Shown piece after piece: positions 17,201 through 47,875 of a stretch of 64,000 bases of DNA (the stretch's first letter is position 1; each line of letters begins with the position of its first letter). This stretch comes from Atherinomorus stipes (taxonomy: Eukaryota; Chordata; Actinopteri; Atheriniformes; Atherinidae): positions 1-64,000 of the forward strand of contig JALJCO010003942.1 in NCBI GenBank assembly GCA_023101725.1, in the 5' to 3' direction. Below the pieces are notes generated by a model. The model had not been told where the DNA came from, ran no database searches, and saw nothing but the letters and a program-made list of their open reading frames with translations. Both the position numbers and the translations under genes were made by a program.

Positions 17201-17516
17201 CTGGCTCTGCTAGCTCGTACCGACACCCGGGCTCTGCAGGACTCTGTGGTCCAGGACCTGGACTCTGGGATTCTGGAGGTGACATCATCCAGAAGTAAGA
17301 CGTATGATTGGAAGAAAGTTTCTCTGTGGCAAACTGATCAGTTATTGATCAGTAATGATCAGTTCTAGACCTTCAGACTCTGGAAACATCCAGATAATCT
17401 CATCAATCTCCAACAGCTGATCATGTTTGACTGCGTTTCCATGGAAACCAGCTCCATGTGTCAGATCATGACATCACCCTCGTTTCTATAGGAGGAAGAT
17501 GAAGATCAGAGCTTAC
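17201..17516 (-). other. Start of class II alpha intron 2
   Basis: Non-repetitive sequence between the minisatellite edge and the alpha1 exon. On the minus strand it begins with the 5' splice site gtaagc next to the exon at 17517. No alpha2-type Ig exon, with its Cys-Trp-Cys pattern, is found here. Confidence 0.6.
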
Positions 17517-17762: not shown

Positions 17763-20700
17763 CTGCAACACATAGAAGATGATTGTTTACCTGCTCTGTT
17801 TGTTTGTTTACCAGCCAGTAAACATCTGGCACCTGCATCATAAACAGTCAGTAAACATCTGGTACCTGGATCATAAACAGTCAGTAAACATCTGGTACAT
17901 GATTCATAAACAGTCGGTAAACATCTGGTTCATAAACAGTCAGTAAACACCTGGAACCTAGATCATAAACAGTCAGTAAACATCTGGATCATAAACAGTC
18001 AGTAAACATCTGGGTCATAAACAGTCAGTAAACATCTGGTACCTGGATCATAAACAGTCAGTTAACATCTGGTACCTCGTTCATAAACAGTCAGTAAACA
18101 TCTGGTACCTGGATCATAAACAGTCAGTAAACATCTGGGTCATAAACAGTCAGTAAACATCTGGTACCTGGATCATAAACAGTCAGTAAACATCTGGAAC
18201 CTGGATCATAAACAGTCAGTAAACATCTGGTACCTGGTTCATAAACAGTCAGTAAACATCTGGAACCTGGATCATAAACAGTCAGTAAACATCTGGTACC
18301 TGGTTCATAAACAGTCAGTAAACATCTGGATCATAAACAGTCAGTAAACATCTGGTACCTGGATCATAAACAGTCAGTAAACATCTGGTACCTGGATCAT
18401 AAACAGTCAGTAAACATCTGGAACCTGGATCATAAACAGTCAGTAAACATCTGATACCTGGTTCATAAACAGTCAGTAAACATCTGGAACCTGGATCATA
18501 AACAGTCAGTAAACATCTGGTACCTGGTTCATAAACAGTCAGTAAACATCTGGATCATAAACAGTCAGTAAACATCTGGTACCTGGATCATAAACAGTCA
18601 GTAAACATCTGGTACCTGGATCATAAACAGTCGGTAAACATCTGGATCATAGACAGTCGGTAAACATCTGGTATCTGGATCATAAACAGTCAGTAAACAT
18701 CTGGTACCTGGATCATAAACAGTCGGTAAACATCTGGTACCTGGATCATAAACAGTCAGTAAACATCTGGTACCTGGATCATAAACAGTCGGTAAACATC
18801 TGGTACCTGGATCATAAACAGTCAGTAAACATCTGGAACCTGGGTCATTAACAGTCAGTAAACATCTGGTACCTGGATCATAAACAGTCAGTAAACCTCT
18901 GGTACCTGGATCATAAACAGTCAGTAAACATCTGGTACCTGGTTCATAAACAGTCAGTAAACATCTGGTATCTGGATCATAAACAGTCAGTAAACATCTG
19001 GTACCTGGATCATAAACAGTCAGTAAACATCTGGTACCTGGATCATAAACAGTCAGTAATCATCTGGTACCTGGATCATAAACAGTCAGTAAACATCTGG
19101 ATCATAAACAGTCAGTAAACATCTGGTACCTGGATCATAAACAGTCAGTAAACATCTGGTACCTGGGTCATAAACAGTCAGTAAACATCTGGGTCATAAA
19201 CAGTCAGTAAACATCTGGTATCTGGATCATAAACAGTCAGTAAACATCTGGTACCTGGATCATAAACAGTCAGTAAACATCTGGTATCTGGATCATAAAC
19301 AGTCAGTGAACATCTGGTACCTGGATCATAAACAGTCAGTAAACATCTGGGTCATAAACAGTCAGTAAACATCTGGTATCTGGATCATAAACAGTCAGTA
19401 AACATCTGGTACCTGGATCATAAACAGTCAGTAAACATCTGGTATCTGGATCATAAACAGTCAGTAAACATCTGGTACCTGGATCATAAACAGTCAGTAA
19501 ACATCTGGGTCATAAACAGTCAGTAAACATCTGGTATCTGGATCATAAACAGTCAGTAAACATCTGGTACCTGGATCATAAACAGTCAGTAAACATCTGG
19601 TATCTGGATCATAAACAGTCAGTAAACATCTGGTACATGGATCATAAACAGTCAGTAAACATCTGGAACCTGGATCATAAACAGTCAGTAAACATCTGGT
19701 ACCTGGATCATAAACAGTCAGTAAACATCTGGTATCTGGATCATAAACAGTCAGTAAACATCTGGTACCTGGTTCATAAACAGTCAGTAAACATCTGGAA
19801 CCTGGATCATAAACAGTCAGTAAACATCTGGTACCTGGTTCATAAACAGTCAGTAAACATCTGGATCATAAACAGTCAGTAAACATCTGGTACCTGGATC
19901 ATAAACAGTCAGTAAACATCTGGAACCTGGATCATAAACAGTCAGTAAACATCTGGTACCTGGTTCATAAACAGTCAGTAAACATCTGGAACCTGGATCA
20001 TAAACAGTCAGTAAACATCTGGTACCTGGTTCATAAACAGTCAGTAAACATCTGGATCATAAACAGTCAGTAAACATCTGGTACCTGGATCATAAACAGT
20101 CAGTAAACATCTGGTACCTGGATCATAAACAGTCGGTAAACATCTGGATCATAAACAGTCGGTAAACATCTGGTATCTGGATCATAAACAGTCAGTAAAC
20201 ATCTGGTACCTGGATCATAAACAGTCGGTAAACATCTGGTACCTGGATCATAAACAGTCAGTAAACATCTGGTACCTGGATCATAAACAGTCGGTAAACA
20301 TCTGGTACCTGGATCATAAACAGTCAGTAAACATCTGGAACCTGGGTCATTAACAGTCAGTAAACATCTGGTACCTGGATCATAAACAGTCCGTAAACCT
20401 CTGGTACCTGGGTCATAAACAGTCAGTAAACATCTGGTACCTGGTTCATAAACAGTCAGTAAACATCTGGTATCTGGATCAAAAACAGTCAGTAAACATC
20501 TGGTACCTGGATCATAAACAGTCAGTAAACATCTGGTACCTGGATCATAAACAGTCAGTAATCATCTGGTACCTGGATCATAAACAGTCAGTAAACATCT
20601 GGATCATAAACAGTCAGTAAACATCTGGTACCTGGATCATAAACAGTCAGTAAACATCTGGTACCTGGGTCATAAACAGTCAGTAAACATCTGGGTCATA

Positions 20701-21418
20701 AACAGTCAGTAAACATCTGGTATCTGGATCATAAACAGTCAGTAAACATCTGGTACCTGGATCATAAACAGTCAGTAAACATCTGGTATCTGGATCATAA
20801 ACAGTCATTGAACATCTGGTACCTGGGTCATAAACAGTCAGTAAACATCTGGGTCATAAACAGTCAGTAAACATCTGGTATCTGGATCATAAACAGTCAG
20901 TAAACATCTGGTACCTGGATCATAAACAGTCAGTAAACATCTGGTATCTGGATCATAAACAGTCAGTAAACATCTGGTACCTGGGTCATAAACAGTCAGT
21001 AAACATCTGGGTCATAAACAGTCAGTAAACATCTGGTACCTGGATCATAAACAGTCAGTTAACATCTGGTACCTCGTTCATAAACAGTCAGTAAACATCT
21101 GGTACCTGGATCATAAACAGTCAGTAAACATCTGGGTCATAAACAGTCAGTAAACATCTGGTACCTGGATCATAAACAGTCAGTAAACATCTGGAACCTG
21201 GATCATAAACAGTCAGTAAACATCTGGTACCTGGTTCATAAACAGTCAGTAAACATCTGGAACCTGGATCATAAACAGTCAGTAAGCATCTGGTTCATAA
21301 ACAGTCAGTAAACACCTGGTACCTGGATCATAAACAGTCAGTAAACAGTCAACAACTCACCGTCAGCAGAGACCCGGAGGAGCCAGCAGAGGAAGAGGAG
21401 CAGCTTCATCTTCATCAT
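17517..21418 (-). CDS. DAA: MHC class II alpha chain, exons 1-2 only (partial gene)
   Basis: The gene would encode the alpha subunit of an MHC class II heterodimer, which presents endosomal peptides to CD4 T cells at the antigen-presenting cell surface. Joining 21418-21361 to 17762-17517 (304 nt) gives a signal peptide (residues 1-18, MKLLLFLCWLL core) and a complete alpha1 domain. C30 and C83 form the alpha1 disulphide pair typical of teleost classical alpha chains. The WYADF motif is at 47-51. N79 and N86, seven apart, match human DRA N62 and N69, which bind the peptide backbone. The phase-1 junctions are standard for class II genes. The alpha2, transmembrane and tail exons should lie at lower coordinates; none is found between 17516 and 1. 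Either intron 2 exceeds 17.5 kb or the gene is truncated. The DA lineage assignment is likely but inferred. Confidence 0.9.
17811..21345. repeat. 33/26-bp minisatellite filling alpha intron 1
   Basis: Roughly 110 units built on cataaacagtcagtaaacat, followed by either ctggtacctggat (33-bp unit) or ctggat (26-bp unit). Substitutions such as ggtatctgg, ggaacctgg and ggttcat recur in blocks; for example the run near 18500-19100 is repeated near 20000-20600. It occupies nearly all of the 3.6-kb intron between the two alpha exons. An 81-codon plus-strand open frame inside it (19637-19882) is repeat, not a gene. Confidence 0.97.
21361..21418 (-). CDS. DAA: MHC class II alpha exon 1 (signal peptide)
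   Basis: 58 nt coding for MMKMKLLLFLCWLLRVSAD plus one base. Start choices are 21418 or 21415, two ATGs in a row; the longer is reported. The donor is g|gtgagt at 21360. The hydrophobic core and small residues before D19 fit a cleaved signal peptide. Confidence 0.9.
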
Positions 21419-22403: not shown

Positions 22404-22426
22404 CCCGGTAACAGATGATGCAGTCA
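22404..22426 (+). promoter_or_regulatory. Class II beta X box
   Basis: cccggtaacagatg (X1, RFX-type) is followed directly by atgcagtca (X2-like), 72-94 bp upstream of the beta start codon. It closely matches the mammalian X box. No good Y box (ATTGG) follows at the normal distance; the best partial match is gactgg near 22466. Confidence 0.7.
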
Positions 22427-22497: not shown

Positions 22498-22552
22498 ATG
22501 GCTTCATCCTTCCTCCTCCTCACCCTCCTCTTCATCACCGTCTACCCAGCAG
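22498..22552 (+). CDS. DAB: MHC class II beta exon 1 (signal peptide)
   Basis: 55 nt starting at the first ATG after the X box (cagagacATG). It encodes a hydrophobic leader with an LLLTLLF core ending YPA. The donor is cag|gtagga. Confidence 0.9.
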
Positions 22553-25500
22553 GTAGGATCAATACTCACTGATCACTGATCAATATGTTATTGGTACTTC
22601 ACGACTTTATCCAGCTGCTGGCAGTAGGCTGATCAATACTCTGATCAATGAGCTGCAGGTGGTTTATGATCAGGAGGAACTTGTTCACTGATCACTGATC
22701 AATGATAGATAATCAATACTCTGATCAATGAGCTGCAGGTGGTTTATGATCAGGAGGAACTTGTTTATTTATCACTGATCACTGATAGATAATCAATACT
22801 CTGATCAATGAGCTGCAGGTGGTTTATGATCAGGAGGAACTTGTTTATTTATCACTGATCAATGATAGATAATCAATACTCTGATCAATATTCTGGTTCC
22901 TGATGAATGAATGTTCAGCATCAGTAATGTGATCAGAGATCAATACTGAGCTTGTTTCTGTTCCAGATGGATTTGAAGAGTATACAGTGAATCGGTGTGT
23001 GTTTAACTCCACTGATCTGAACGACATCGAGTACATCTACTCACATTACTACCAGAAGAAGGAGTACGCCAGGTTCAGCAGCAGCGTGGGGAAGTACGTA
23101 GGATACACGGAGTTTGGAGTGAAGAACGCTGCACGCTGGAACAATGATCCTTCAGAACTGGCTGCCAGAAAAGCTCAGAAGGAGGCGTACTGCCAACACA
23201 ACATTGGGAACTGGTACAGCAACATTCTGACTAAATCAGGTGAGTGTTCCATCCTCTTCCTCGTCATGATGAAGATCAGACTGCACCTGTGACCTCAGAT
23301 CAGCTGCTGGTCTGGTTTCATCTCCAGGATCCAGGATTTGAACCAGAAACTGGTTCCCAGACCAGATCCTGTCCTAAAGATCTGATCCAGATCTGGGATC
23401 CAGTTCTACCTCTGATCCAGGTTTCTGGGTCCAAACCTTTGAAATGAGACCCAGAAACCTGGATCACTGTGATCCTGAAGACTGGAACCAGATCAGAGGA
23501 CCTGGATCTAGTCTTTTATCAGTTCCAGTGTCAGAACCAGACCTGGATCTGGTCTTTTATCAGTTCCAGAACCAGAACCAGACCTGGATCTGGTCTTTTA
23601 TCAGTTCCCAGAGTCAGAACCAGACCTGGATCTAGTCTTTTATCAGTTCCAGAGTCAGAACCAGACCTGGATCCGGTCTTTCATCAGTTTCAGAGTCAGA
23701 ACCAGACCTGGATCCGGTCTTTTTATCAGTTCCCAGAGTCAGAACCAGACCTGGATCCGGTCTTTTTATCAGTTCCAGAGTCAGAACCAGACCTGGATCC
23801 GGTCTTTTTATCAGTTCCCAGAGTCAGAACCAGACCTGGATCCGGTCTTTTATCAGTTCCCAGAGTCAGAACCAGACCTGGATCTGGTCTTTTATCAGTT
23901 CCAGAGTCAGAACCAGACCTGGATCCGGTCTTTTATCAGTTCCAGAGTCAGAACCAGACCTGGATCCGGTCTTTTATCAGTTCCAGAGTCAGAACCAGAC
24001 CTGGATCCGGTCTTGTATCAGTTCCAGAGTCAGAACCAGACCTGGATCCGGTCTTTTATCAGTTCCCAGAGTCAGAACCAGACCTGGATCCGGTCTTTTA
24101 TCAGTTCCAGAATCAGAACCAGACCTGGATCTGGTCTTTTATCAGTTCCAGAGTCAGAACCAGACCTGGATCCGGTCTTTTATCAGTTCCAGAGTCAGAA
24201 CCAGACCTGGATCCGGTCTTTTATCAGTCCCAGAGTCAGAACCAGACCTGGATCCGGTCTTTTATCAGTTCCAGAGTCAGAACCAGACCTGGATCCGGTC
24301 TTTTATCAGTTCCCAGAGTCAGAACCAGACCTGGATCCGGTCTTTTATCAGTTCCAGAATCAGAACCAGACCTGGATCTGGTCTTTTATCAGTTCCAGAG
24401 TCAGGACCAGACCTGGATCCGGTTTTTTATCAGTTCCAGAATCAGAACCAGACCTGGATCCGGTCTTTTATCAGTTCCAGAGTCAGAACCAGACCTGGAT
24501 CCGGTGTTTTATCAGTTCCAGAGTCAGAACCAGACCTGGATCCGGTCTTGTATCAGTTCCAGAGTCAGAACCAGACCTGGATCCGGTCTTTTATCAATTC
24601 CAGAATCAGGACCAGACCTGGATCTGGTCTTTTATCAGTTCCAGTGTCAGAACCAGACCTGGATCTGGTCTTGTATCAGTTCCAGAGTCAGAACCAGACC
24701 TGGATCTGGTCTTTTATCAGTTCCAGAGTCAGAACCAGACCTGGATCCGGTCTTTTATCAGTTCCAGTGTCAGAACCAGACCTGGATCTGGTCTTTTATC
24801 AGTTCCAGTGTCAGAACCAGACCTGGATCTGGTCTTGTATCAGTTCCAGAACCAGAACCAGACCTGGATCAGCTGCGTTCAGCTTCTATGCTCCACATGT
24901 CTGGAACAAACTCCCAGAAAGTCTCAGATCAGTTGGAGCAGTTTATTTTAATCCAGATTAAAGACTCACCTGTTCTCAGCTGCATCTGCAGAGATTTTAC
25001 TCAAAAGTTAAAATCCACACGACTCTATATTCTCTCTTTTTAAACTTAAATATTTTTATGTTTTTAATCTTAAGTCATGCTTCTACTTTCTTGTTCTTTT
25101 TCCCTTCTGCACTCCGCTGTAATGTTTATAATGTTTTATGTGAAGCACTATGAATCGTCCTGTACATGAAATGTGCTGTGCAGATAAACTTGCCTTGCTT
25201 TTGACTTGTAGAAATGCTGAGAATCATGACTAACAATCAGGGGCCGGTATGTAGAAGCCAATGTTTATAAGACAGTCCATAAGTCTATAAGACAGGAAGT
25301 GATGTGTGTATTGGTGTGTGTTTCACCTGAATGGCACGTTGGGTTTGACCGCTTGGCCAGGAACTCTATCACCACAGCTTGTGTTTGTATGATGTTTTGC
25401 TGATGAGGAAGTCAAAGGAAGAATAAAACAGCTTTTGGCTGCTAGAACAGCGTCTGGATGTTCCTTTTTATCACCAAACGGTTCTGGTGTAAGACCCTCC

Positions 25501-28500
25501 AGAGGCTTTATGTGTCGGCTTCGCCCTGTACCAACCGTGTGACCCTAAAACGATACGTTGTACAGTTCTACTATGAAATAGTGATGAATACCCTCGTCTG
25601 TGTTCCAGCTGAACCCTACGTCCGGCTGTACTCCACCACGCCCCCTGCTGGTCGTCATCCTGCCATGCTGGTCTGCAGAGTCTACGACTTCTACCCCAAA
25701 ACCATCAAGGTCACCTGGCTCAGAGACGGACAGGAGGTCACCTCTGATGTCACTTCCACCGATGAGATGGAGGACGGGGACTGGTACTACCAGATCCAGT
25801 CCCACCTGGAGTACACGCCCAGGTAAGACCAGATCCAGTCCCACCTGGAGTACACACCCAGGTAAGACCAGATCCAGTCCCACCTGTAGTACACACCCAG
25901 GTAAGACCAGATCCAGTCCCACCTGGAGTAAACACCCAGGTAATACCAGATCCAGTCCCACCTGGAGTATACACCCAGGTAAGACCAGATCCAGTCCCAC
26001 CTGGAGAACACACCCATGTAAGTCCCACCTGGAGTACACACCCATGTAAGACCAGATCCAGTCCCACCTGGAGTACACACCCATGTAAGACCAGATCCAG
26101 TCCCACCTGGAGTACACACCCAGGTAAGACCAGATCCAGTCCCACCTGGAGTACACACCCAGGTAAGACCAGATCTAGTCCCACCTGGAGTACACACCCA
26201 GGTAAGACCAGACCAGATCCAGTCCCACCTGGAGTACACACCCATGTAAGACCAGATCCAGTCCCACCTGGAGTACACACCCAGGTAAGACCAGATCCAG
26301 TCCCACCTGGAGTACACACCCAGGTAAGACCAGATCTAGTCCCACCTGGAGTATACACCCAGGTAAGACCAGATCCAGTCCCACCTGGAGAACACACCCA
26401 GGTAAGACCAGATCCAGTCCCACCTGGAGTACACACCCAGGTAAGACCAGATCCAGTCCCACCTGGAGTACACACCCAGGTAAGACCAGATCTAGATCCA
26501 GTCCCACCTGGAGTACACCACCCAGGTAAGACCAGATCCAGTCCCACCTGGAGTTCACACCCAGGTAAGAACAGATCCAGTCCCACCTGGAGTACACTCC
26601 CAGGTAAGACCAGATCCAGTCCCACCTGGAGTACACACCCAGGTAAGACCAGATCCAGTCCCACCTGGAGTACACACCCAGGTAAGACCAGATCCAGTCC
26701 CACCTGGAGTACACGCCCAGGTAAGACCAGATCCAGTCCCACCTGGAGAACACACCCATGTAAGACCAGATCCAGTCCCACCTGGAGTTCACACCCAGGT
26801 AAGACCAGATCCAGTCCCACCTGGAGTACACACCCAGGTAAGACCAGATCCAGTCTCACCTGGAGTTACACCCAGGTAAGACCAGATCTAGATCCAGTCC
26901 CACCTGGAGTACACACCCATGTAAGACCAGATCCAGTCCCACCTGGAGAACACACCCAGGTAAGACCAGATCCAGTCCCACCTGGAGTACACGCCCAGGT
27001 AAGACCAGATCCAGTCCCACCTGGAGTACACGCCCAGTTAAGACCAGATCCAGTCCCACCTGGAGTATACACCCAGGTAAGACCAGATCCAGTCCCACCT
27101 GGAGTACACGCCCAGGTAAGACCAGATCCAGTCCCACCTGGAGTACACACCCATGTAAGACCAGATCCAGTCCCACCTGGAGTACACACCCATGTAAGAC
27201 CAGATCCAGTCCCACCTGGAGTACACACCCAGGTAAGACCAGATCCAGTCCCACCTGGAGTACACGCCCAGGTAAGACCAGATCCAGTCCCACCTGGAGT
27301 ACACACCCAGGTAAGACCAGATCCAGTCCCAACTGGAGTACACACCCAGGTAAGACCAGATCCAGTCCCACCTGGAGAACACACCCAGGTAAGACCAGAT
27401 CCAGTCCCACCTGGAGTACACGCCCAGGTAAGACCAGATCCAGTCCCACCTGGAGTTCACACCCAGGTAAGACCAGATCCAGTCCCACCTGGAGAACACA
27501 CCCAGGTAAGACCAGATCCAGTCCCACCTGGAGAACACACCCAGGTAAGACCAGATCCAGTCCCACCTGGAGAACACACCCAGGTAAGACCAGATCCAGT
27601 CCCACCTGGAGAACACACCCAGGTAAGACCAGATCCAGTCCCACCTGGAGAACACACCCAGGTAAGACCAGATCCAGTCCCACCTGGAGTACACACCCAG
27701 GTAAGACCAGATCCAGTCCCACCTGGAGTACACGCCCAGGTAAGACCAGATCCAGTTCCACCTGGAGAACACACCCAGGTAAGACCAGATCCAGTCCCAC
27801 CTGGAGAACACACCCAGGTAAGACCAGATCCAGTCCCACCTGGAGTACACACCCAGGTAAGACCAGATCCAGTCCCATCTGGACAACACACCCAGGTAAG
27901 ACCAGATCTAGATCCAGTCCCACCTGGAGTATACACCCAGGTAAGACCAGATCCAGTCCCACCTGGAGTACACGCCCAGGTAAGACCAGATCCAGTCCCA
28001 CCTGGAGAACACACCCATGTAAGACCAGATCCAGTCCCACCTGGAGTTCACACCCAGGTAAGACCAGATCCAGTCCCACCTGGAGTACACACCCAGGTAA
28101 GACCAGATCCAGTCTCACCTGGAGTTACACCCAGGTAAGACCAGATCTAGATCCAGTCCCACCTGGAGTACACACCCATGTAAGACCAGATCCAGTCCCA
28201 CCTGGAGAACACACCCAGGTAAGACCAGATCCAGTCCCACCTGGAGTACACGCCCAGGTAAGACCAGATCCAGTCCCACCTGGAGTACACGCCCAGTTAA
28301 GACCAGATCCAGTCCCACCTGGAGTATACACCCAGGTAAGACCAGATCCAGTCCCACCTGGAGTACACGCCCAGGTAAGACCAGATCCAGTCCCACCTGG
28401 AGTACACACCCAGGTAAGACCAGATCCAGTCCCACCTGGAGTACACACCCATGTAAGACCAGATCCAGTCCCACCTGGAGTACACACCCATGTAAGACCA

Positions 28501-31500
28501 GATCCAGTCCCACCTGGAGTACACACCCAGGTAAGACCAGATCCAGTCCCACCTGGAGTACACGCCCAGGTAAGACCAGATCCAGTCCCACCTGGAGTAC
28601 ACACCCAGGTAAGACCAGATCCAGTCCCAACTGGAGTACACACCCAGGTAAGACCAGATCCAGTCCCACCTGGAGAACACACCCAGGTAAGACCAGATCC
28701 AGTCCCACCTGGAGTACACGCCCAGGTAAGACCAGATCCAGTCCCACCTGGAGTTCACACCCAGGTAAGACCAGATCCAGTCCCACCTGGAGAACACACC
28801 CAGGTAAGACCAGATCCAGTCCCACCTGGAGAACACACCCAGGTAAGACCAGATCCAGTCCCACCTGGAGAACACACCCAGGTAAGACCAGATCCAGTCC
28901 CACCTGGAGAACACACCCAGGTAAGACCAGATCCAGTCCCACCTGGAGAACACACCCAGGTAAGACCAGATCCAGTCCCACCTGGAGTACACACCCAGGT
29001 AAGACCAGATCCAGTCCCACCTGGAGTACACGCCCAGGTAAGACCAGATCCAGTCCCATCTGGACAACACACCCAGGTAAGACCAGATCTAGATCCAGTC
29101 CCACCTGGAGTATACACCCAGGTAAGACCAGATCTAGATCCAGTCCCACCTGGAGTATACACCCAGGTAAGACCAGATCCAGTCCCACCTGGAGTACACA
29201 CCCAGGTAAGACCAGATCCAGTCCCACCTGGAGTACACACCCAGGTAAGACCAGATCCAGTCCCACCTGGAGTACACAGCAAGGTAAGACCAGATCCAGT
29301 CCCACCTGGAGTACACAGCAAGGTAAGACCAGATCCAGTCTCACCTGGAGTACACACCCAGGTAAGACCAGATCCAGTCCCACCTGGAGTTCACACCCAG
29401 GTAAGACCAGATCCAGTCCCACCTGGAGTAAACACCCAGGTAAGACCAGATCCAGTCCCACCTGGAGTAAACACCCAGGTAAGACCAGATCCAGTCCCAC
29501 CTGGAGTACACACCCAGGTAAGACCAGATCCAGTCCCACCTGGAGTACACACCCAGGTAAGACCAGATCCAGTCCCACCTGGAGTACACACCCAGGTAAG
29601 ACCAGATCCAGTCCCACCTGGAGTAAACACCCAGGTAAGACCAGATCCAGTCCCACCTGGAGTATACACCCAGGTAAGACCAGATCCAGTCCCACCTGGA
29701 GTACACACCCAGGTAAGACCAGATCCAGTCCCACCTGGAGTAAACACCCAGGTAAGACCAGATCCAGTCCCACCTGGAGTACACACCCAAGTAAGACCAG
29801 ACCAGATCCAGTCCCACCTGGAGTACACAGCCAGGTAAGACCAGATCCAGTCCCACCTGGAGTACACACCCAGGTAAGACCAGATCCAGTCCCACCCGGA
29901 GTACAAACCCAGGTAAGACCAGATCCAGTCCCACCTGGAGTACACACCCAGGTAAGACCAGATCCAGTCCCACCTGGAGTATACACCCAGGTAAGACCAG
30001 ATCCAGTCCCACCTGGAGTACACACCCAGGTAAGACCAGATCCAGTCCCACCTGGAGTACACACCCAGGTAATACCAGATCCAGTCCCACCTGGAGTACA
30101 CAGCCAGGTAAGACCAGATCCAGTCCCACCTGGAGTACACAGCCAGGTAAGACCACATCCAGTCCCACCTGGAGTACACACCCAGGTAAGACCAGATCCA
30201 GCCCCACCTGGAGTATATACCCAGGTAAGACCAGATCCAGTCCCACCTGGAGTAAACACCCAGGTAAGACCTGATCCAGTCCCACCTGGAGTACACACCC
30301 AGGTAAGACCAGATCCAGTCCCACCTGGAGTACACACCCAGGTAAGACCAGATCTAGTCTCACCTGGAGTGTCAGGTACAAAAAAAGGCTACTCTTGAAA
30401 TAAGTTTAAAAAGATGTTTTGCTTGATTTAAGCAAAAAAAAAAATTGCCAATAGAACGAGTAAAATTTTCTTGCCAAGGTTTCTTGAAATCAGATGCATT
30501 TGTCTCAAAACAAGTTCCTTTATCTCACTGAAATGTTTCTCTTTAGGTGATTTGTCTGATTTGAGTGTGATGGGATATTTGGGGTAGAAATTACAATAAT
30601 ATGCTTGCTAAGATTTGAGTTTTTGCAGTGACACCTTTGCAAAAACGTGATTTAATGAACTTATTAGTTGAAAATCTATGGCAGTGGCACTCAGAGAGCC
30701 GTCCTTTTTTACCAACTCTTTATTTCTTAGAGCACATGAGCCATTGACGTGTCCGCTTCCAGCAGATGGTCTGGCTCTGTTGGGTGTAGTGGGCTTTATT
30801 GTAGCCTGCAGCAGGTAGAGGAGAAACCGGGTCGGGACTAACCTGGTCTGGCTGCATTTACATGGCAGAGATTAGCAGCACCTACAGCAGCGTTCAGTAA
30901 CCAGTTATTCTCCTCGTCTCTGTCTGGTCTTTTTGCTCCTGAAGCAACAGTTCTGAGTGTTTCTAACTGCTGTAGCTGCTCCACATCGTTTAAAACTCCC
31001 ACTGATCCGCTGTTAAACTTGTCTGCTTCAGCCTGGAGGCCGTTAACTCCCCACGTTACCCTGCTGAGGTGAAGCAGACTCTGCTGCAGCTGCAGGAGCT
31101 GTGTGCTGGTTAGCTGTGAAGCTGGAAGTAAAACATTCAGTCAAACAGCTGAAATATGGATGCATGCTCCTCAGGAACTCATTAGATTAAAGGAGCCCTA
31201 TCATGAAAAATGGACTTTAAGAGCTTTTCAGCATGTCAGTGTCTTATTTCCTCATCAAGAAATGATTTAAATCGTTGTTTTCTTCATTCATGCATATTTG
31301 AGTAATCTACATGAATATTTAAACCAAGCGCTACCTCCCTGCAAACGGCTGACTACCCACCCCGTTACGTATGAACGTGGCACCAATCACGAAGTGACAA
31401 ACACGCATGTGCAGCATCGTAGCCAGACGCCCTCTTTGTGGAACAGAAACTCTTAGAGAATCCTAACATATACACACTCTCTGAGGAAGAAACTAACAGC

Positions 31501-34500
31501 TGCAGGAAGATTTCCTCACAGACAAACAGCCATCAGCTAACAGACATTTCATCCAGATTCAGGAGGTTTTTTTTAGCTCTAGAGGACGGAGAGTTGGTAA
31601 AAATGTGTTTGTGTTCAGCGTGGGAGTTTATTTGTTGTTCTGGATGAATCGACTCCAGAAGTGGTTGGATTCTAACTTCAGGAGCAGAAAAAAACCTCAA
31701 CTTTGTGTGTGAACTTCACTCCTGACAACTTCATGAATGTCGGGTAGTAAAGTGTTTTTTTCTTGGGGATTACTTCTGAAACCTGACGCAGTTCCTGCTA
31801 TAAAAACGCCTCATGGACAGACAACAGCACTGGTGAGAGAAAACGTCTCCCAGCTCAATGCTAACTGTTAGCCGTTGATTTGTTCGCTAATTTACTTTCT
31901 TGTCAGGGTCTCTGTGCTACTTCTGTGGTACTTCTGTGGTACTGCGTGTACTTCTGTGGTACTTCTTTGGTACTGCGTGTACTTAACTCCATATCAGATC
32001 TGGGTGGAGCATACAGCTCCATAACAGGCTGCTCCATTTTATCCCGTCGATCAAAGTCCGATTATCCATCAATATTTACAAAAAACGTCCATGTGAGCTG
32101 CCGGTGTTAAGAACAATTCTGTTACCGTCAGAATCTGTGTCTCTTCCGGGGCGACGTCATGAAATGGACGTAAAACATGTTGCAATTGGTGGAGAGCTCC
32201 GTGGATCAGGACAGTCAGACATCTTACTTCCATGTTGGAAATTAGACGCATAAAAAACTAATATTTACACCAGATTAGTTTCTATGGTAACGATGGAACA
32301 TGTTTAGATTATAAATGCCTGTTTTTGACTTTTGGAACGTTTGAAAAGCTGATACAGCTGCTTTAAGTTAGGGGTTCCCCAGGGTTCAATCTTAGGCCCA
32401 ATACTTTTTAAACTGCACATGTTGACTTGGGGACGTCATCAGGAGACACTGAAGTTCACCCCTATGCTGATGATACCCAGCTTTACATCACTGTGTCTCC
32501 TGATGACCTGGAGCCAGTTAACAGCTATGCTGATGATACCCAGCTTTACATCACCGTGTCTCCTGATGACCTGGAGCCAGTTAACAGCTATGCTGATGAT
32601 ACCCAGCTTTACATCACTGTGTCTCCTGATGACCTGGAGCCAGTTAACAGCTATGCTGATGATACCCAGCTTTACATCACCGTGTCTCCTGATGACCTGG
32701 AGCCAGTTAACAGCTATGCTGATGATACCCAGCTTTACATCACCGTGTCTCCTGATGACCTGGAGCCAGTTAACAGCTATGCTGATGATACCCAGCTTTA
32801 CATCACCGTGTCTCCTGATGACCTGGAGCCAGTTAACAGCTATGCTGATGATACCCAGCTTTACATCGCCGTGTCTCCTGATGACCTGGAGCCAGTTAAC
32901 ACCCTTTAACTGGATCTTAGATATACAGATGTGGGCATGAAAAAGTTCCTCCTTTTTCTGCCAGAAGTGGTGCGGTAACAGTGCACCATTACTGCACTAT
33001 CACTGGCTGAATGATTTGTCCCGCGAATACGTCATCACGGACTGTGTCCAAACTTGGCGTGTGGAAATGTCCTTGTTCCGGGCGTTAATTTATGCTCTGA
33101 AATCGTTTCCCCTGGCACCCAGGTGTTTCTCTGTGCGACTGAATTAGCAGACAAGTCACTGGTAAGTGGCTGGTATGTGGCTGGCAGTCGGCTGAAAGGG
33201 GAACTTTTTCATGCTCACATCTGTAAAGTCATGGATGGAAGAACTTCTTCCAACCAGGACAAGACTGAAGTTTTAATCATGGTCCTGAAGAGGACGGAGA
33301 TTATTTTACCTGAATTACAGAGATTTAATCCTTCTCAGTGTGAAAAACCTTGGTGTTCTCTAGAGTCTGGGGGGGGGGGGGGGTGTTATTCCACACATCA
33401 GAAACATCACAAAGATTTTATCATCTTAAAAACATCCCAGAGTTCGTCCCTCGTCGATTCAGGATTGATTTTAAGCTTCTTCTGGTGGTTTAGAAATGTC
33501 TTCATGGTCTTGGACCTTCTTATTATCTGACCTGCTTCTAAATTTTGAGTCCTCGTGGACCCTGAGATCCTCTGGTACTGGTCTTTCAGTTGATCCTAAA
33601 GTCAGGACAGAAACCTACAGTGAAGCTTCATTCCACCATCATGGTCCTGGTCTATGGACCATCTATGGACCAGTTTAAAACAATATTAGACCAGTATAGA
33701 ACCAGATCCTGGTCTATGGACCATCTATGGACCAGTTTAAAACAAGATTAGACCAGTTTAAAACCAGGTCCTGGTCTATGGACCATCTATGGACCAGTTT
33801 AAAACAAGATTAGATCAGTATAAAACCAGGTCCTGGTCTACGGACCAGTTTAAAACAAGATTAGACCAGTATAAAACCAGGTCTTGGTCTATGGACCACC
33901 TATGGACCAGTTTAAAACAAGATTAGACCAGTATAAAACCAGATCCTGGTCTATGGACCATCTATGGACCAGTTTAAAACAAGATTAGACCAGTTTAAAA
34001 CCAGGTCCTGGTCTAAGGACCATCTATGGACCAGTTTAAAACAAGATTAGACCAGTATAAAACCAGGTCCTGGTCTATGGACCATCTATGGACCAGTTTA
34101 AAACAAGATTAGACCAGTATAAAACCAGGTCCTGGTCTATGGACCATCTATGGACCAGTTTAAAACAAGATTAGACCAGTATAAAACCAGGTCCTGGTCC
34201 ATGGACCATCTATGGACCAGTTTAAAACAAGATTAGTCCAGTATAAAACCAGGTCCTGGTCTATGGACCATCTATGGACCAGTTTAAAACAAGATTAGAC
34301 CAGTATAAAACCAGGTCCTGGTCTATGGACCATCTATGGACCAGTTTAAAACAAGATTAGACCAGTATAAAACCAGGTCCTGGTCTATGGACCATCTATG
34401 AACCAGTTTAAAACAAGATTAGACCAGTATAAAACCAGGTCCTGGTCTATGGACCATCTATGGACCAGTTTAAAAACCAAGATTAGACCAGTATAAAACC

Positions 34501-36177
34501 AGGTCCTGGTCTATAGACCAGTTTAAAACAAGATTAGACCAGTATAAAACCAGGTCCTGGTCTATGCCAGAGAACCTGCAGAGGCTGTTGATGCTTTTAA
34601 AAGAGGCTAAAGACTTTTTCATTAAGCATTTTATTAATAAGTTTTATATTTTATATAGTTTTGACTCTGATAAGCGGAAGAAGATGGATGGATGGTTTTG
34701 ATTTTACTGAAACACGTCGTATTAGTTGTTTTTATTGCTCTTCTGTCCATATTTCAATAATTCCTGCAAAGTTCTTATTTGTTCTTATTGATGTTCATTT
34801 ACTCTTTAACATCAACTCCAGTGTTTTCCTCATGGGGGGCATCCACGCTGGGAGCTTTGGTTTTTGGTCTGGGGGCTTGCTGCCATCGAGGGGTTCTTGT
34901 TGGGGTGGGTGGGGGTCCTGCACTACAACATGATGGTTGTGGTCTGGGCCCTGGTCTGCCCAGATCTAGGGGGTCCTTCTGGTGGCAGCTTCTGAGAGCA
35001 TGATAGAACCGTTCTATCATGGTACATGGGTTCTATATGGGTTCTACCTGGACTCTACTTTAGCACTACATGGGTTCTACCTGGTTCTACCTGGTTCTAC
35101 CTGGACTCTACTTTAGCACTACATGGGTTCTACCTGGTTCTACCTGGTTCTGCATGGGTTCTACCTGGTTCTACCTGGTTCTACCTGGTTCTATCTGGTT
35201 CTACCTGGTTCTACCTGGTTCTACGTAGGTTTTTTCCGGGTTTACAGAGTTTGTGTTTAAGTTCCATATCAGTGATGCTGGTTTGTGTTGCAGGTCTGGA
35301 GAGAAAATCTCCTGCAAGGTGGAACACGCCAGTCTGAAGGAACCTCTGATTACTGACTGGGGTAAACACCTGTCCTACATCTGTCTGTCCTACACCTGTC
35401 TCTCTCACCTGTCTGTCTCTAACCTGTCTGTCTCACCTGTGTGTCCCCAGACCCGTCCATGCCTGAGTCAGAGAGAAACAAGATTGCCATCGGAGCTTCA
35501 GGACTGATCCTGGGTCTGGTCTTATCTCTGGCTGGATTCATCTATTACAGGAGGAAGGCCCAAGGTCAGTCCAGTTTAAACCAATTCAGACCACTTTAAA
35601 ACAAAATTAAACCAGCAGAAAAACAAGTTTAGACCAGTATGAAATAAAATTAAACCTGTACAAAACAAGGTCAGTCTAGTTCAAAACCGTTTACACCAGT
35701 TTAGACCAGTATAAAACAATGTTAGACCAGTTTAAAACCAGATTAGACCAGTTTTAATCCAAATTAAACCAGTTTAAACAAGATTAGACCAGTTTAAAAC
35801 CAGATAAAACCAGTTTAAAAACAAAATTATACCAGTTTAAAACCAGATAAGGCCAGTTTTAAACCAGATTAGACCAGTTAAAAACAAGATTAGACCAGTT
35901 TAAAACCAGATTAGACCAGTTTAAACCAGATTAGACCAGTTAAAAACAAGATTAGACCAGTTTAAACCAGATTAGACCAGTTTCAAACAAGGTTAGACCA
36001 GTTTAAAACCAGATTTAATTTAAAACAATCAATTTAAAACAAGGTTATGCCATTTTAAACTGGTCTTATCTGATATAAGACCAGTTTGGACCAGTTCAGG
36101 GGAGTGTGAGCCGGTTCAATGTTGTTTATTCTGTCCTTTCTCCTTTCTCAGGTCGTATTCTGGTTCCGACCAACTGA
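22498..36177 (+). CDS. DAB: MHC class II beta chain, complete six-exon gene
   Basis: The beta subunit of the peptide-presenting class II heterodimer, a type I membrane glycoprotein. The exons are 22498-22552, 22967-23239, 25609-25822, 35294-35361, 35451-35564 and 36152-36177, totalling 750 nt (249 codons plus stop). Domains: signal 1-18; beta1 19-109 with the C29-C94 bridge and an N-glycosylation site at N32; Ig-type beta2 110-203 with C132, W146 and C188 in SCKVEH; connecting peptide; transmembrane segment about 214-236 with small-residue spacing (G218, G221, G225, G232); short basic tail. W76, H96 and N97 match human DRB W61, H81 and N82, which supports a classical chain. All introns begin GT and end AG. 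The gene spans 13.7 kb, mainly because introns 2 and 3 are swollen by tandem repeats. The DA lineage label is inferred. Confidence 0.95.
22553..22966 (+). repeat. Beta intron 1 with an 80-bp tandem repeat
   Basis: A 414-bp intron. The block starting aatactctgatcaatgagct begins at 22635, 22715 and 22795, with a partial copy at 22875, so the period is exactly 80 bp. The intron is rich in TGATCA palindromes. Confidence 0.85.
22967..23239 (+). CDS. DAB: MHC class II beta exon 2 (beta1 domain)
   Basis: 273 nt after the acceptor ctgttccag, with donor g|gtgagt. It encodes the polymorphic peptide-groove half: C29/C94, the NST sequon at N32, RWNND around W76, and YCQHN at 93-97. Phase 1 at both ends. 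Confidence 0.95.
23501..24870. repeat. 41-bp minisatellite in beta intron 2
   Basis: About 33 units with parts gttccagagtcagaaccaga, cctggatccggtc and ttttatca. Some units gain one or two bases, so open frames switch. The open frames of up to 524 codons (23469-25043) are repeat read-through. In the sense strand each unit carries a pyrimidine run followed by ttccag, like a weak 3' splice site. Confidence 0.96.
24871..25205 (+). mobile_element. 5'-truncated LINE 3' end in beta intron 2
   Basis: Directly abutting the array, the plus strand encodes FSFYAPHVWNKLPESLRSVG, the usual C-terminal reverse-transcriptase/ORF2 ending of L2-like fish LINEs. It is followed by a 3' UTR with gtgaagcactatgaat, gaaatgtgctgtgcagataaa and a cttgccttgc end. 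The element is truncated upstream, so it is not active. Confidence 0.8.
25206..25608 (+). other. End of beta intron 2
   Basis: Unique sequence between the LINE tail and exon 3. An aataaaa motif near 25422 and its flanks could be an LTR remnant, but I cannot support that. It ends with the acceptor gtctgtgttccag at 25608. Confidence 0.5.
25609..25822 (+). CDS. DAB: MHC class II beta exon 3 (beta2 domain, first part)
   Basis: 214 nt encoding AEPYVRLYSTTPP through HLEYTPR, with Ig C1-set landmarks C132, FYP and W146. The donor is cccag|gtaagacc at 25823. The last 35 coding bases are themselves the first unit of the 39-bp minisatellite that follows. Confidence 0.95.
25788..30368 (+). repeat. 39-bp minisatellite made of the exon 3 end plus its splice donor
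   Basis: About 117 units. Each has gtaagaccagatccagtccc, then acctggagtacacacccag. The second part and most of the first are the 3' end of exon 3, and gtaaga is the intron 3 donor. Variants include cccatgtaag, cccagttaag, gcaaggtaag and a 6-bp insertion (agatctagatcc). Long minus-strand open frames (up to 740 codons, 28115-30337) arise because 39 is divisible by three and the reverse frame lacks stops. Confidence 0.97.
26850..29130. repeat. About 1.26-kb duplication inside the 39-bp array
   Basis: The private variant agtctcacctggagttacac occurs at about 26852 and again at about 28111 (offset 1259). The unit with ccatctggacaacac occurs near 27876 and 29056. The order of intermediate variants is shared, so a block of about 32 units was duplicated recently. 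Confidence 0.8.
30369..31186. other. Beta intron 3, unique part with a possible DNA-transposon remnant
   Basis: The stretch 30375-30632 ends with gagtttttgcagtgaca, a terminus I associate with short fish inverted-repeat elements; the left end is unclear. The remainder (30640-31186) shows no gene or repeat I can name. Confidence 0.4.
31187..32366. mobile_element. 1.18-kb inverted-repeat element flanked by TTAA
   Basis: The left end ttaaaggagccctatcatg (31187) and the right end, read in reverse complement as ttaaagcagctgtatcag (32366), match at about 14 of 18 positions. Both sit on TTAA. TTAA target duplication is characteristic of piggyBac-type transposons. No transposase is present, so it would be non-autonomous. 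The internal open frames at 31438-31647 and 31880-32110 have no recognisable domain. Confidence 0.55.
32367..33480 (+). pseudogene. L2-like LINE reverse-transcriptase fragment, broken
   Basis: The plus strand reads GVPQGSILGPILFKLHM (RT motif just before the active site), then YADDTQLYITVSPDD (motif C, catalytic YADD), here in seven tandem copies, then a degraded LFNWILDIQMW segment. After about 300 bp of unrelated sequence (32930-33235) come NQDKTEVLIMVLKR and, past a 15-G run at 33369, HTSETSQRFYHLKNI in another frame. This order matches the palm-to-thumb part of an L2/CR1-type ORF2. The amplification, insertion and frameshift make it non-functional. Confidence 0.8.
32463..32900 (+). repeat. 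63-bp in-frame tandem repeat of the RT active site (7 copies)
   Basis: Units start at 32463, 32526, 32589, 32652, 32715, 32778 and 32841 with tatgctgatgatacccagct. Each encodes 21 residues, including YADD and SPDDLEPVN. The copies differ at only a few positions (actgtg/accgtg, and one atcgcc), so the expansion is young. Confidence 0.95.
33640..34570 (+). repeat. 62-bp minisatellite in beta intron 3
   Basis: About 15 units with ggtcctggtctatggaccat, then ctatggaccagtttaaaaca, then agattagaccagtataaaacca. Most units are full length; a few lack the atggaccatct segment. Confidence 0.95.
34571..34720 (+). mobile_element. LINE 3' remnant after the 62-bp array
   Basis: gaggctgttgatgctttt and aaagaggctaaagac encode EAVDAFKRG-like residues, the usual C-terminal end of L2-type ORF2. 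It is followed by gcggaagaagatggatggat, a common fish repeat tail. It is probably the other end of the LINE at 32367-33480, split by the 62-bp array. Confidence 0.55.
34721..35293 (+). repeat. End of beta intron 3 with an 11-bp tandem repeat
   Basis: Copies of ttctacctggt (11 bp) fill about 35027-35225, with a duplicated longer block containing ctctactttagcactacatg at about 35053 and 35106. The intron ends in the acceptor gtgttgcag at 35293. Confidence 0.8.
35294..35361 (+). CDS. DAB: MHC class II beta exon 4 (beta2 domain, second part)
   Basis: 68 nt encoding SGEKISCKVEHASLKEPL to W203. It supplies the second Ig cysteine (C188) and the conserved VEH motif. Joined to exon 3 it gives 282 nt, the length of the single beta2 exon in other vertebrates. 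The donor is g|gtaaac. Confidence 0.95.
35451..35564 (+). CDS. DAB: MHC class II beta exon 5 (connecting peptide and transmembrane)
   Basis: 114 nt after the acceptor gtgtccccag; the preceding intron is only 89 bp. It encodes DPSMPESERNK, then the hydrophobic helix IAIGASGLILGLVLSLAGF, then YYRRKAQ as a stop-transfer sequence. The donor is aag|gtcagt. Confidence 0.95.
35577..36080 (+). repeat. Degenerate 21-bp repeat in beta intron 5
   Basis: Copies of accagtttaaaaccagatta with variants such as aaaacaagattag fill most of the 587-bp intron between exons 5 and 6. The motif is the same as part of the 62-bp unit in intron 3. Confidence 0.85.
36152..36177 (+). CDS. DAB: MHC class II beta exon 6 (cytoplasmic tail end)
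   Basis: 26 coding nt after the acceptor cctttctcag: the split G242 codon, then RILVPTN and TGA. This gives a short tail typical of fish class II beta. Confidence 0.88.
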
Positions 36178-37935: not shown

Positions 37936-38875
37936 ACTGAATAATCCAGGTGTGTGTGATCTCAGTAACTGGTCAGACACACCTGGATTAATCAGTTTGT
38001 CCAGTAATGAAACAGGAAATAGTGGAGCCGTGCATGGAGCCCATTAGACGGTTTCTATTTGGAAAATGGTTCCTGGATGGTTTGTTTTTATTTTTAGAAA
38101 TAGTTTCTAATACAGTTTTATTCATTTGTCTGAAATACATATTTCATCTCTGAAAGCCAGAAAAACAAGTTTCCTGGTGCATCCATTTTGGTATTAAAAC
38201 TTTCAAAAATCTTGGACATGATGTCATTCCCAGATGCAACTTTCTATCTGAGAGTCAAAGTTAGCACAGAATTATAAACTCACAGATTCATCAACACAGA
38301 CGTAGACAGACCAAGAGGGAGCGCTCGCTTCCTCTAAGTGGATCGTTGGGGGAACAGATGCTGCTCTGTGGGGGCCGTTCAATGTTGCTGCATTCCTTGT
38401 TTCAGTCTTTTGTTTGCGTTTGCCGCTTGCTTCAACAATCTTACAGCAACGTCCCGTCCATCTGAGGATCTAAACAAACATAGTTCTTATTTTCTATTTT
38501 ATTTGTGATGGTAACACAACCAGAAATGATCAGCATTACCCATCTTTTAAAGATAGAGTCTGAAGCCCCCCCCCTACCGTTTCTGTTTGCAAACAGTATC
38601 AAACTGACCCCTCCCTCTCAGACTAACGGCCGCCTTCTTCAGCCTGTTCAGCTTCAACGACTCCTTCAGAGCTCAGAAGCAGTAAAAGCCAAACTAACAT
38701 GAACCTGGTTTTCCAACGTGCATCTAAAGCTCCTACCTTTTTCTTTGTAGTTCCACGTTTTCGTGTCTTTCAGTTGATCTGGATCGTTTGCTGACGGCAG
38801 AATAATCCATAACTATCGCTTACAGTGTTTGAATTTACCGTGACGTCTTCTTCCTGCATCAGAACTGTGGATGTA
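37936..38875. other. Intergenic, no gene recognised
   Basis: Nothing is supported here. The 65-codon open frame at 38505-38702 shows no domain. The sequence just before 38876 (tgacgtcttcttcctgcatc) already holds a lone TGACGTC and may be the seed of the array that follows. Confidence 0.45.
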
Positions 38876-41800
38876 GCATCAATGACGTCACGTCTGCAGC
38901 ATCAATGACGTCACGTCTGCAGCGTTAATGACGTCACGTCTGCAGCGTTAATGACGTCACGTCTGCAGCATCAATGACGTCACGTCTGCAGCATCAATGA
39001 CGTCACGTCTGCAGCATCAATGACGTCACGTCTGCAGCATCAATGACGTCACGTCTGCAGCGTTAATGACGTCACGTCTGCAGCATCAATGACATCACGT
39101 CTGCAGCATCAATGACGTCACGTCTGCAGCATTAATGACGTCACGTCTGCAGCATCAATGACGTCACGTCTGCAGCATCAATGACGTCACGTCTGCAGCA
39201 TCAATGACGTCACGTCTGCAGCATCAATGACATCACGTCTGCAGCATCAATGACGTCACGTCTGCAGCGTTAATGACGTCACGTCTGCAGCATCAATGAC
39301 GTCACGTCTGCAGCATCAATGACGTCACGTCTGCAGCGTTAATGACGTCACGTCTGCAGCGTTAATGACGTCACGTCTGCAGCATCAATGACGTCACGTC
39401 TGCAGCGTCAATGACGTCACGTCTGCAGCATCAATGACGTCACGTCTGCAGCTTTAATGACGTCACGTCTGCAGCGTTAATGACGTCACGTCTGCAGCAT
39501 CATTGGACGTCACGTCTGCAGCATCATTGGACGTCACGTCTGCAGCATCATTGGACGTCACGTCTGCAGCATCATTGGACGTCACGTCTGCAGCATCATT
39601 GGACGTCACGTCTGCAGCATCAATGACGTCACGTCTGCAGCGTCAATGACGTCACGTCTGCAGCATCAATGACGTCACGTCTGCAGCATCAATGACGTCA
39701 CGTCTGCAGCGTTAATGACGTCACGTCTGCAGCGTTAATGACGTCACGTCTGCAGCATCAATGACGTCACGTCTGCAGCGTTAATGACGTCACGTCTGCA
39801 GCGTTGATGACGTCACGTCTGCAGCATCAATGACGTCACGTCTGCAGCGTTAATGACGTCACGTCTGCAGCGTTAATGACGTCACGTCTGCAGCATCAAT
39901 GACGTCACGTCTGCAGCGTTAATGACGTCACGTCTGCAGCGTTGATGACGTCACGTCTGCAGCGTTGATGACGTCACGTCTGCAGCGTCAATGACGTCAC
40001 GTCTGCAGCGTCAATGACGTCACGTCTGCAGCGTCAATGACGTCACGTCTGCAGCGTCAATGACGTCACGTCTGCAGCGTCAATGACGTCACGTCTGCGG
40101 CGTCAATGACGTCACGTCTGCAGCGTTAATGACGTCACGTCTGCAGCGTTAATGACGTCACGTCTGCAGCATCAATGACGTCACGTCTGCAGCATCAATG
40201 ACGTCACGTCTGCAGCATCAATGACGTCACGTCTGCAGCGTTAATGACGTCACGTCTGCAGCGTTAATGACGTCACGTCTGCAGCATCAATGACGTCACG
40301 TCTGCAGCATCAATGACGTCACGTCTGCAGCATCAATGACGTCACGTCTGCAGCATCAATGACGTCATGTCTGCAGCGTTAATGACGTCACGTCTGCAGC
40401 GTAAATGACGTCACGTCTGCAGCATCAATGACGTCACGTCTGCAGCATCAATGACGTCACGTCTGCAGCGTCAATGACGTCACGTCTGCAGCATCAATGA
40501 CGTCACGTCTGCAGCGTTAATGACGTCACGTCTGCAGCATCAATGACGTCACGTCTGCAGCATCAATGACGTCACGTCTGCAGCGTCAATGACGTCACGT
40601 CTGCAGCATCAATGACGTCACGTCTGCAGCGTTAATGATGTCACGTCTGCAGCGTTAATGACGTCACGTCTGCAGCATCAATGACGTCACGTCTGCAGCG
40701 TTAATGACGTCACGTCTGCAGCATCAATGACGTCACGTCTGCAGCATCAATGACATCACGTCTGCAGCGTAAATGACGTCACGTCTGCAGCATCAATGAC
40801 GTCACGTCTGCAGCGTCAATGACGTCACGTCTGCAGCATCAATGACGTCACGTCTGCAGCATCAATGACGTCACGTCTGCAGCATCAATGACGTCACGTC
40901 TGCAGCATCAATGACGTCACGTCTGCAGCATCAATGACGTCACGTCTGCAGCGTTAATGACGTCACGTCTGCAGCATCAATGACGTCACGTCTGCAGCAT
41001 CAATGACGTCACGTCTGCAGCATCAATGACGTCACGTCTGCAGCATCAATGACGTCACGTCTGCAGCATCAATGACGTCACGTCTGCAGCGTTAATGACG
41101 TCACGTCTGCAGCATCAATGACGTCACGTCTGCAGCATCAATGACGTCACGTCTGCAGCGTAAATGACGTCACGTCTGCAGCATCAATGACGTCACGTCT
41201 GCAGCGTCAATGACGTCACGTCTGCAGCATCAATGACGTCACGTCTGCAGCATCAATGACGTCACGTCTGCAGCGTCAATGACGTCACGTCTGCAGCATC
41301 AATGACGTCACGTCTGCAGCATCAATGACGTCACGTCTGCAGCGTCAATGACGTCACGTCTGCAGCTTCAATGACGTCACGTCTGCAGCGTCGATGACGT
41401 CACGTCTGCAGCGTCAATGACGTCACGTCTGCAGCATCAATGACGTCACGTCTGCAGCGTTAATGACGTCACGTCTGCAGCATCAATGACGTCACGTCTG
41501 CAGCATCAATGACGTCACGTCTGCAGCGTCAATGACGTCACGTCTGCAGCATCAATGACGTCACGTCTGCAGCGTCAATGACGTCACGTCTGCAGCATCA
41601 ATGACGTCACGTCTGCAGCGTCAATGACGTCACGTCTGCAGCGTCAATGACGTCACGTCTGCAGCATCAATGACGTCACGTCTGCAGCATCAATGACGTC
41701 ACGTCTGCAGCGTCAATGACGTCACGTCTGCAGCGTCAATGACGTCACGTCTGCAGCATCAATGACGTCACGTCTGCAGCGTTAATGACGTCACGTCTGC

Positions 41801-47800: not shown

Positions 47801-47875
47801 CTGCAGCATCAATGACGTCACGTCTGCAGCATCAATGACGTCACGTCTGCAGCATCAATGACGTCACGTCTGCAG
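38876..47875. repeat. 9-kb, 23-bp minisatellite with a CRE palindrome per unit
   Basis: About 390 units of atgacgtcacgtctgcag preceded by a variable 5-bp part: gcatca, gcgtca, gcgtta or gcgtaa before atgacg. Nearly every unit holds TGACGTCA, the consensus CREB/ATF site, and CTGCAG. Each unit has two or three CpGs. A minority are altered: tgatgtca, tgacatca, tggcgtca, cgtccgcag, and five consecutive 24-bp units with attggacgtca at about 39500-39610. It contains no long open frame. Confidence 0.97.
43860..47000. repeat. Higher-order duplications inside the 23-bp array
   Basis: The rare variant ctgtagcatc occurs at 43891 and 46421 (offset 2530, exactly 110 units). The variant run ttaatgatgtca, then two normal units, then gtaaatgacgtcatg occurs near 44473-44560 and 46566-46650 (offset about 2093, 91 units). 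The array therefore grew partly by duplicating multi-unit blocks. Confidence 0.75.

Follow-up and report, generated by a model that had tools for sequence, protein, structure and literature searches.

A minisatellite carrying about a hundred splice donors in intron 3 of an MHC class II beta gene of Atherinomorus stipes

The class II beta gene and its 39-bp array

The window, a stretch of 64,000 nucleotides from Atherinomorus stipes, carries on its plus strand an MHC class II beta gene whose joined reading frame comprises six exons, 750 coding bases, and 249 residues. Exon 1 (22498 to 22552) encodes the leader, and 5' of it, at 22410, stands AACAGATGA, which we take to be an X-box-like motif. 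Exon 2 (22967 to 23239) encodes the beta1 domain, exon 3 (25609 to 25822; 214 bp) the first part of the beta2 domain, exon 4 (35294 to 35361) the second part of beta2 with C188, exon 5 (35451 to 35564) the connecting peptide and the membrane anchor, the latter read off the sequence, and exon 6 (36152 to 36177) the coding end with the stop codon TGA. All six exons follow from the joined frame, exon 2 also from Pfam PF00969 and the closest proteins and exon 3 from the Pfam C1-set domain PF07654. On the minus strand, in head-to-head orientation with the beta gene, is a class II alpha gene (exon 1, 21418 to 21361; exon 2, 17762 to 17517).

The joined frame, the Pfam domains of the predicted protein (MHC_II_beta and C1-set), and the closest proteins agree on a class II beta gene, as an earlier sequence-only reading had proposed, and the position given there for C188 is right in precursor numbering. 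The gene has the beta1 domain, C1-set domain, split beta2 domain, membrane anchor, and intact frame of a classical teleost MHC class II B gene. In a search of 5.8 billion sequences, class II beta chains of fish matched best, and the first four of them (Melanotaenia, Chaetodon, Odontesthes, and Leuresthes) aligned over the full length at 81 to 82% identity. An arbitrarily rooted tree was built from the query and 29 of the 120 homologs listed. One of its splits (96/91) separated 18 rows from 12, the larger side holding the query together with silversides, rainbowfish, ricefish, killifish, livebearers, and a damselfish, presumably the Ovalentaria; no smaller starred set includes the query. Cichlid class IIB genes likewise have six exons, the first five of 55, 273, 214, 69, and 114 bp against 55, 273, 214, 68, and 114 bp here (PMC5310070).

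Intron 3 of the window gene measures 9,471 bp, and 48% of it is a 39-bp array. This minisatellite runs on the plus strand from 25789 to 30378, where wrap-around alignment resolved 117 units, the last partial; TRF reported 25789 to 30370, with a period of 39, 116.6 copies, and 93% matches. The first unit straddles the exon boundary, consisting of the final 34 coding bases of exon 3 (25789 to 25822) and the GTAAG of the true donor. The true 5' splice site, CAG/GTAAGA (25820 to 25828; the slash marks the junction), recurs in identical sequence in 96 downstream copies, so that the donor at 25823 is, as previously read, the first of a ladder of strong tandem donors that mostly have one core. Exact CAGGTAAG occurs 97 times with the true donor included; every plus-strand copy in the window lies inside the array, and one copy lies on the minus strand. 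The donor positions comprise 97 with CAGGTAAG, 12 with CATGTAAG, 2 with CAGGTAAT, 2 with AAGGTAAG, 1 with CAAGTAAG (114 of 116 with GT), and 2 with CAGTTAAG; GTAA is kept at 114 of them, and TTAA stands at 2. The donor ladder is far beyond chance: of the 1292 plus-strand GT sites lying outside the six largest arrays, a single one matches CAGGTAAGA in strength of U1 pairing.

Across 114 units having no more than one gap (three gapped units excluded), mean pairwise divergence is 4.2% and 27 unit types are present; the exonic unit is matched exactly by 12 other units. The array also contains a large internal duplication of about 1.3 kb, shown by two exact repeats, one of 646 bp at offset 1298 and one of 480 bp at offset 1259.

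A second locus and the repeat-rich surroundings

A search of the source genome (1.18 Gb, 7656 contigs) with two repeat units, in which counts are lower bounds, located the 39-bp array on two contigs only, that of the window (C2036) and a second one, C6622. C6622 is collinear with the window across the alpha-beta pair, and window bases 1 to 2814 had no match on it. The beta gene on C6622 matches the window gene in exon lengths and donor sequences, has an intact 750-base frame encoding 249 residues, and likewise reads into TAA directly after the donor. Its array comprises 101 units, the last partial, with 88 exact cores, 91 GTAA donors including the true one, and a mean divergence of 4.9%. The internal order differs from that of the window array, the commonest unit is the same, and 7 unit types are common to both (27 types in the window, 36 on C6622). 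A second array of another length and unit order, in a gene of intact frame, shows that the array genuinely exists, that it varies, and that a gene can stay intact with it; this supports tolerance by the host gene.

Differences between the two loci, summed by hand with gaps excluded, amount to 262 of 6711 bases in aligned non-repeat noncoding stretches, 43 of 273 in exon 2, 8 of 214 in exon 3, and 1 of 208 in exons 4 to 6, behind the array. MHC alleles usually diverge strongly in beta1 and hardly in exons 4 to 6, and C6622 may be the other haplotype of the window locus or, as near-identical pairs of this kind were absent among the other class II loci in the assembly search list, a recent paralog of it. 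The intron beside exon 4 also differs only slightly (at 6 of 258 bases over three stretches, 34567 to 35293), so the conservation of exons 4 to 6 counts for little near exon 4, and recent exchange between the loci could explain part of it. The only exon difference that falls inside the unit is G or A at exon base 209, a variant also present within both arrays.

Tandem repeats with a period of at least 7 account for 70.5% of the bases in the window and for 66.7% of those in C6622. Around 21 other class II beta hits they make up 2.7% of 67.9 kb, a figure that excludes the five hits on C2036 and C6622 and comes mostly from one of the 21, adjoining a class II alpha array; five further 4-kb stretches are together 20% repeat, one of them almost entirely. 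The array thus lies in a repeat-rich region, perhaps a repeat-rich genome, in which minisatellites expand freely, and this favors the reading of the donor copies as by-products. Palindromic units were rejected as a general cause of the regional arrays, since only 4 of 12 units stood out when folded as DNA: of 300 dinucleotide shuffles, 4 scored at or below A39 (the donor-bearing unit), 3 at or below A62, 9 at or below A80, and 17 at or below A41, and the other eight units gave 50 to 241. When ten array units were compared with the window outside the listed arrays in a search for other junction-born arrays, no match exceeded 32 bases, and matches to exons were of 10 to 15 bases. A C6622 array near class IIA exon 3 was set aside as a junction-born candidate because it starts within the intron, and viral contigs gave no match. 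Three other class II beta-like beta2 exons (at two places on C1671 and on C6438) are all unsplit, one of them frameshifted, and three class II beta-like hits on C4803 are also unbroken across the junction.

Donor choice and its predicted consequences

Between 25801 and 30400, 101 sites are donor-like by the threshold of a U1 duplex at or below -8 kcal/mol. In predicted read-through the first of them yields the 249-residue protein, and all of the other 100 end at codon 182, which bears out the earlier expectation that any downstream donor would bring in a premature stop. The responsible TAA occupies intron bases 2 to 4 (25824 to 25826, plus strand), and reading past the true donor gives EYTPR followed by that stop. 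Because exon 3 ends two bases into a codon, GTAA is read as TAA; the stop is thus explained by phase, and selection is not needed to explain it. The companion claim that downstream donors keep the frame proved mostly wrong, as only 38 of the 101 sites do so, the true one included. The other sites lose the frame through indels, a loss that leaves the product unchanged because each of the 100 extended forms reaches the TAA beforehand. Only three sites, again including the true donor, would give exons no longer than 300 nt, and with donor 2 the stop would lie some 217 nt ahead of the last exon junction.

Each of the 97 CAGGTAAGA sites forms a U1 duplex of -11.0 kcal/mol; 96 copies equal the true donor in sequence and therefore in U1 pairing too. 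Selection on the donors was considered and rejected: the donor columns vary roughly like the rest of the unit (2.1 variants per column against 2.8 in the window array, 2.0 against 2.7 in the C6622 array) and are not specially conserved, ranking 25 among 39 circular windows, with C6622 alike. In a comparison directed at recursive splice sites (AG/GT zero-length exons), which would call for a strong pyrimidine tract ahead of AG/GT, the pyrimidine fraction before CCCAG/GTAAG was 0.53, and those of the five true acceptors were 0.71, 0.76, 0.53, 0.76, and 0.94.

The unit is a quasi-palindrome, CCAGGT..GAC..GATC..GTC..ACCTGG, and as RNA it is predicted to be more stable than every one of 500 shuffled versions. 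Against shuffles that also break the repetition, two array stretches reach folding z scores of -9.0 and -13.7. The end of the exon and the first 10 intron bases form a predicted donor hairpin that 24 of 1000 shuffles equalled in stability. With 40 bases of context on each side, opening the true donor costs 10.5 against a mean of 12.8 for the copies, and 13 of the 95 copies open more easily; once the context is 60 to 120 bases, 28 to 36 of them do. The idea that structure hides the copies was therefore dropped, the true donor's advantage with short context fading with wider context. From 5 to 35 C the predicted opening cost of the true donor falls from 15.4 to 9.8 kcal/mol, and those of the exon 2 and exon 4 donors fall less; over that range, 24 sampled copies showed no consistent difference in opening from the true donor. 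Neither donor sequence nor predicted folding clearly singles out the first site, which leaves position or the order of synthesis as the expected basis of the choice. Scanning is, however, only one of several models of donor choice set out in PMC2423196.

Origin and interpretation of the array

The unit encodes part of YYQIQSHLEYTP/R, a conserved stretch at which the first beta2 half ends. The junction pattern fits 118 of the 120 listed homologs (1180 were matched), and by hand count SHLEYTP precedes the junction in 105 of these and IQSHLEYTP in 7. The exonic part of the unit is thus conserved coding sequence, which indicates that copying ran from exon to intron, and the proposal of a minisatellite seeded at an exon-intron junction stands, unit 1 being the end of exon 3 plus the donor. 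The intron between the beta2 exons measures 86 bp in miiuy croaker (PMC3162010); in Midas cichlid, one sequenced allele has an intron 3 of 405 bp, and draft contigs show lengths from 155 bp to 5 kb (PMC5310070). Intron 3 of the window gene is therefore not new, and its length varies widely among fish class IIB genes.

We consider it probable that the array is a junction-born minisatellite that is spliced out with its intron, the first donor winning by position. A short repeat, GTAAGACCAG, at the start of the ancestral intron could have seeded slippage; the 39-bp stretch of 34 coding bases and GTAAG would have been duplicated and then expanded through slippage or unequal exchange, probably before the window locus and C6622 separated, and the donor copies would be by-products of that expansion. 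Nearly all splicing most likely goes through the most upstream donor, which is synthesized first and yields the shortest exon (214 nt). Given the intact second copy and the F7 precedent described below, the array would be removed inside the 9.5-kb intron, leaving a normal 249-residue protein.

Intron 7 of human F7, the gene for coagulation factor VII, is the direct precedent, having tandem donor repeats of which the first holds the true donor and a small number of copies, about 5 to 8. As in F7, the first repeat here holds the true donor and the rest follow within the intron, and copy number varies, here 117 against 101 units at two loci of one assembly that are alleles or paralogs. According to a review, only the most upstream 5' splice site of the 37-bp F7 repeats is normally used, and mutation of that first site led to exon skipping and to use of downstream intronic cryptic sites, which are not said to be repeat copies (PMC6627357). 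By analogy, we infer first-donor use in this gene. The present case differs from F7 in gene and vertebrate, in its 117 and 101 units against the small human number, in the 9.5-kb intron, and perhaps in a unit that takes in 34 coding bases. We class the array with the F7 type of junction-born minisatellite; it is very large and sits in an immune gene, the kind being known and the copy number extreme.

Other systems share single features with it. In brook charr a cis-acting minisatellite is likewise tied to an MH class II beta gene, whose expression it is reported to modulate with temperature and repeat length; the part of that report drawn on here mentions neither a junction origin nor donors (PMC3891768). 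Repeats also drive intron length in cichlid class IIB genes, there in intron 2, as a 42-mer, a 21-mer, and a 127-mer, and the corresponding part of that report describes no exon-derived array (PMC5310070). Tandem duplication spanning an intron-exon boundary or AGGT is likewise described for intron gain or change, in potato RdRp and in the Rogers model (PMC4974935). Intron gain of the Rogers type was rejected here, as no new intron has appeared: intron 3 splits beta2 in croaker and cichlid too (exact positions uncompared) and is far longer here. No splice-donor array in an MHC gene was described in the titles and abstracts surveyed, which cover few subscription journals.

Might so many donors nevertheless act on the gene? 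Competition among them, with downstream use leading to the TAA at codon 182 and to degradation of the transcript, would turn copy number into a brake on, or a rheostat for, surface class II. Ninety-seven equally strong donors, a stop in all 100 extended forms that for donor 2 falls upstream of the last exon junction, and the temperature-sensitive minisatellite said to affect class II beta expression in brook charr (PMC3891768) speak for this reading, but normal use of the first donor alone in F7 (PMC6627357), the intact state of both gene copies at 117 and 101 units, the three donors only that give exons of 300 nt or less, and the lack of special conservation at the donors make it unlikely. 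The same intact C6622 gene, the single difference in 208 bases of exons 4 to 6, the unconserved donor columns, and the F7 precedent argue against a damaging switch, and a role as off switch or U1 decoy, as the sequence alone might suggest, is disfavored. Splicing from other donors and slower splicing likewise find no support here; a brake, decoy, or helper role would be possible.

The array could conversely be a landing platform, the copies 39 and 78 nt downstream binding U1, helping to define exon 3, and so aiding the true donor. Engineered U1 directed to intron positions 27 to 63 promoted definition of a mutated F9 exon 5 (PMC6627357), a result indicating that extra U1 sites need not harm. 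Engineered U1 differs, however, from natural U1 at a functional donor, and the donor columns again lack special conservation, so we regard a platform as quite improbable. We hold equally little expectation of a tuning dependent on copy number and temperature, in which a ladder of about 100 foldable donors, each in the predicted RNA stem of its unit and with an opening cost that falls on warming, would govern the amount of U1 bound by the first donor and by its neighbors, and array turnover could rewrite the end of exon 3, unit 1 being coding. An array inflated or misplaced in assembly might be suspected from the exact internal repeats (646 and 480 bp) and from the repeat-rich contigs, but the second contig has the array at the same place with another unit order, the units are heterogeneous (27 types), and the window contains no N; an error of this kind is very improbable, the exact copy number still being assembly-dependent.

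The locus is a natural experiment in which one donor is picked among about 100 of equal sequence, similar predicted folding, and different position. Use of the first donor only would be evidence that fish, too, choose by position or order, as reported for human F7, and use of later donors would tie minisatellite length to antigen presentation. In either case, coding sequence of an immune gene sits inside an expanding minisatellite.

Arrays within the class II beta gene

The 39-bp donor array of intron 3 is one of several tandem repeats in the introns of the class II beta gene. A 41-bp array occupies 23499-24870 in intron 2, with 33 copies in the window versus 154 in the second intact beta gene copy, on contig C6622 of the same genome. 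The arrays at 33643-34566 and 35566-36015, which lie in two different introns of the gene, have related units (up to approximately 80% identity across 102 bases), as if a minisatellite had spread from intron to intron. Intron 3 also contains seven copies of a 63-bp unit (32462-32901), of which copies 1 to 3 each translate to YADDTQLYITVSPDDLEPVNS, presumably a fragment of a LINE-type reverse transcriptase that became a minisatellite.

Arrays around the class II alpha gene

Large arrays also lie near the exons of the minus-strand class II alpha gene. A 33-bp array (17812-21347) begins 13 bases inside alpha intron 1 and contains CAGGTACCA 57 times on the sense strand of the gene. Past exon 2, on its far side, approximately 767 copies of an 18-bp unit extend over 14 kb (3196-17201), and because of this position the array probably lies within alpha intron 2; on C6622, alpha exon 3 was found across a comparable gap. 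There (C6622:49711-62571; loci L013, L044, and L045), the exon 3 match ends at 49938 and is followed, from 49964, by 381 copies of a 33-bp unit. A third contig, C3067 (locus L031), has a stretch and an array related to these, at 94% identity.

A CRE/X2-box core and coding remnants

The 23-bp array at 38875-47875 (391 copies) contains TGACGTCA, the CRE/X2-box core, 371 times, and the motif occurs nowhere else in the window. The consensus of the C6622 array (1-8789) does not have this palindrome intact, which speaks against a required function. A coding remnant at 51550-52060, interrupted by stops, includes a peptide typical of Tc1-type transposases. Elsewhere in the genome, an unsplit beta2 exon of a class II beta-like locus (L023, C1671:589552-589770) contains a frameshift, and the locus is therefore likely a pseudogene.

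A possible abundance of tandem repeats across the genome

Tandem repeats, chiefly of an 18-bp unit, account for 3949 of the 4000 bases in a stretch chosen without regard to repeat content (L049, C5933:100001-104000), and giant minisatellites may therefore be common across the genome of Atherinomorus stipes.
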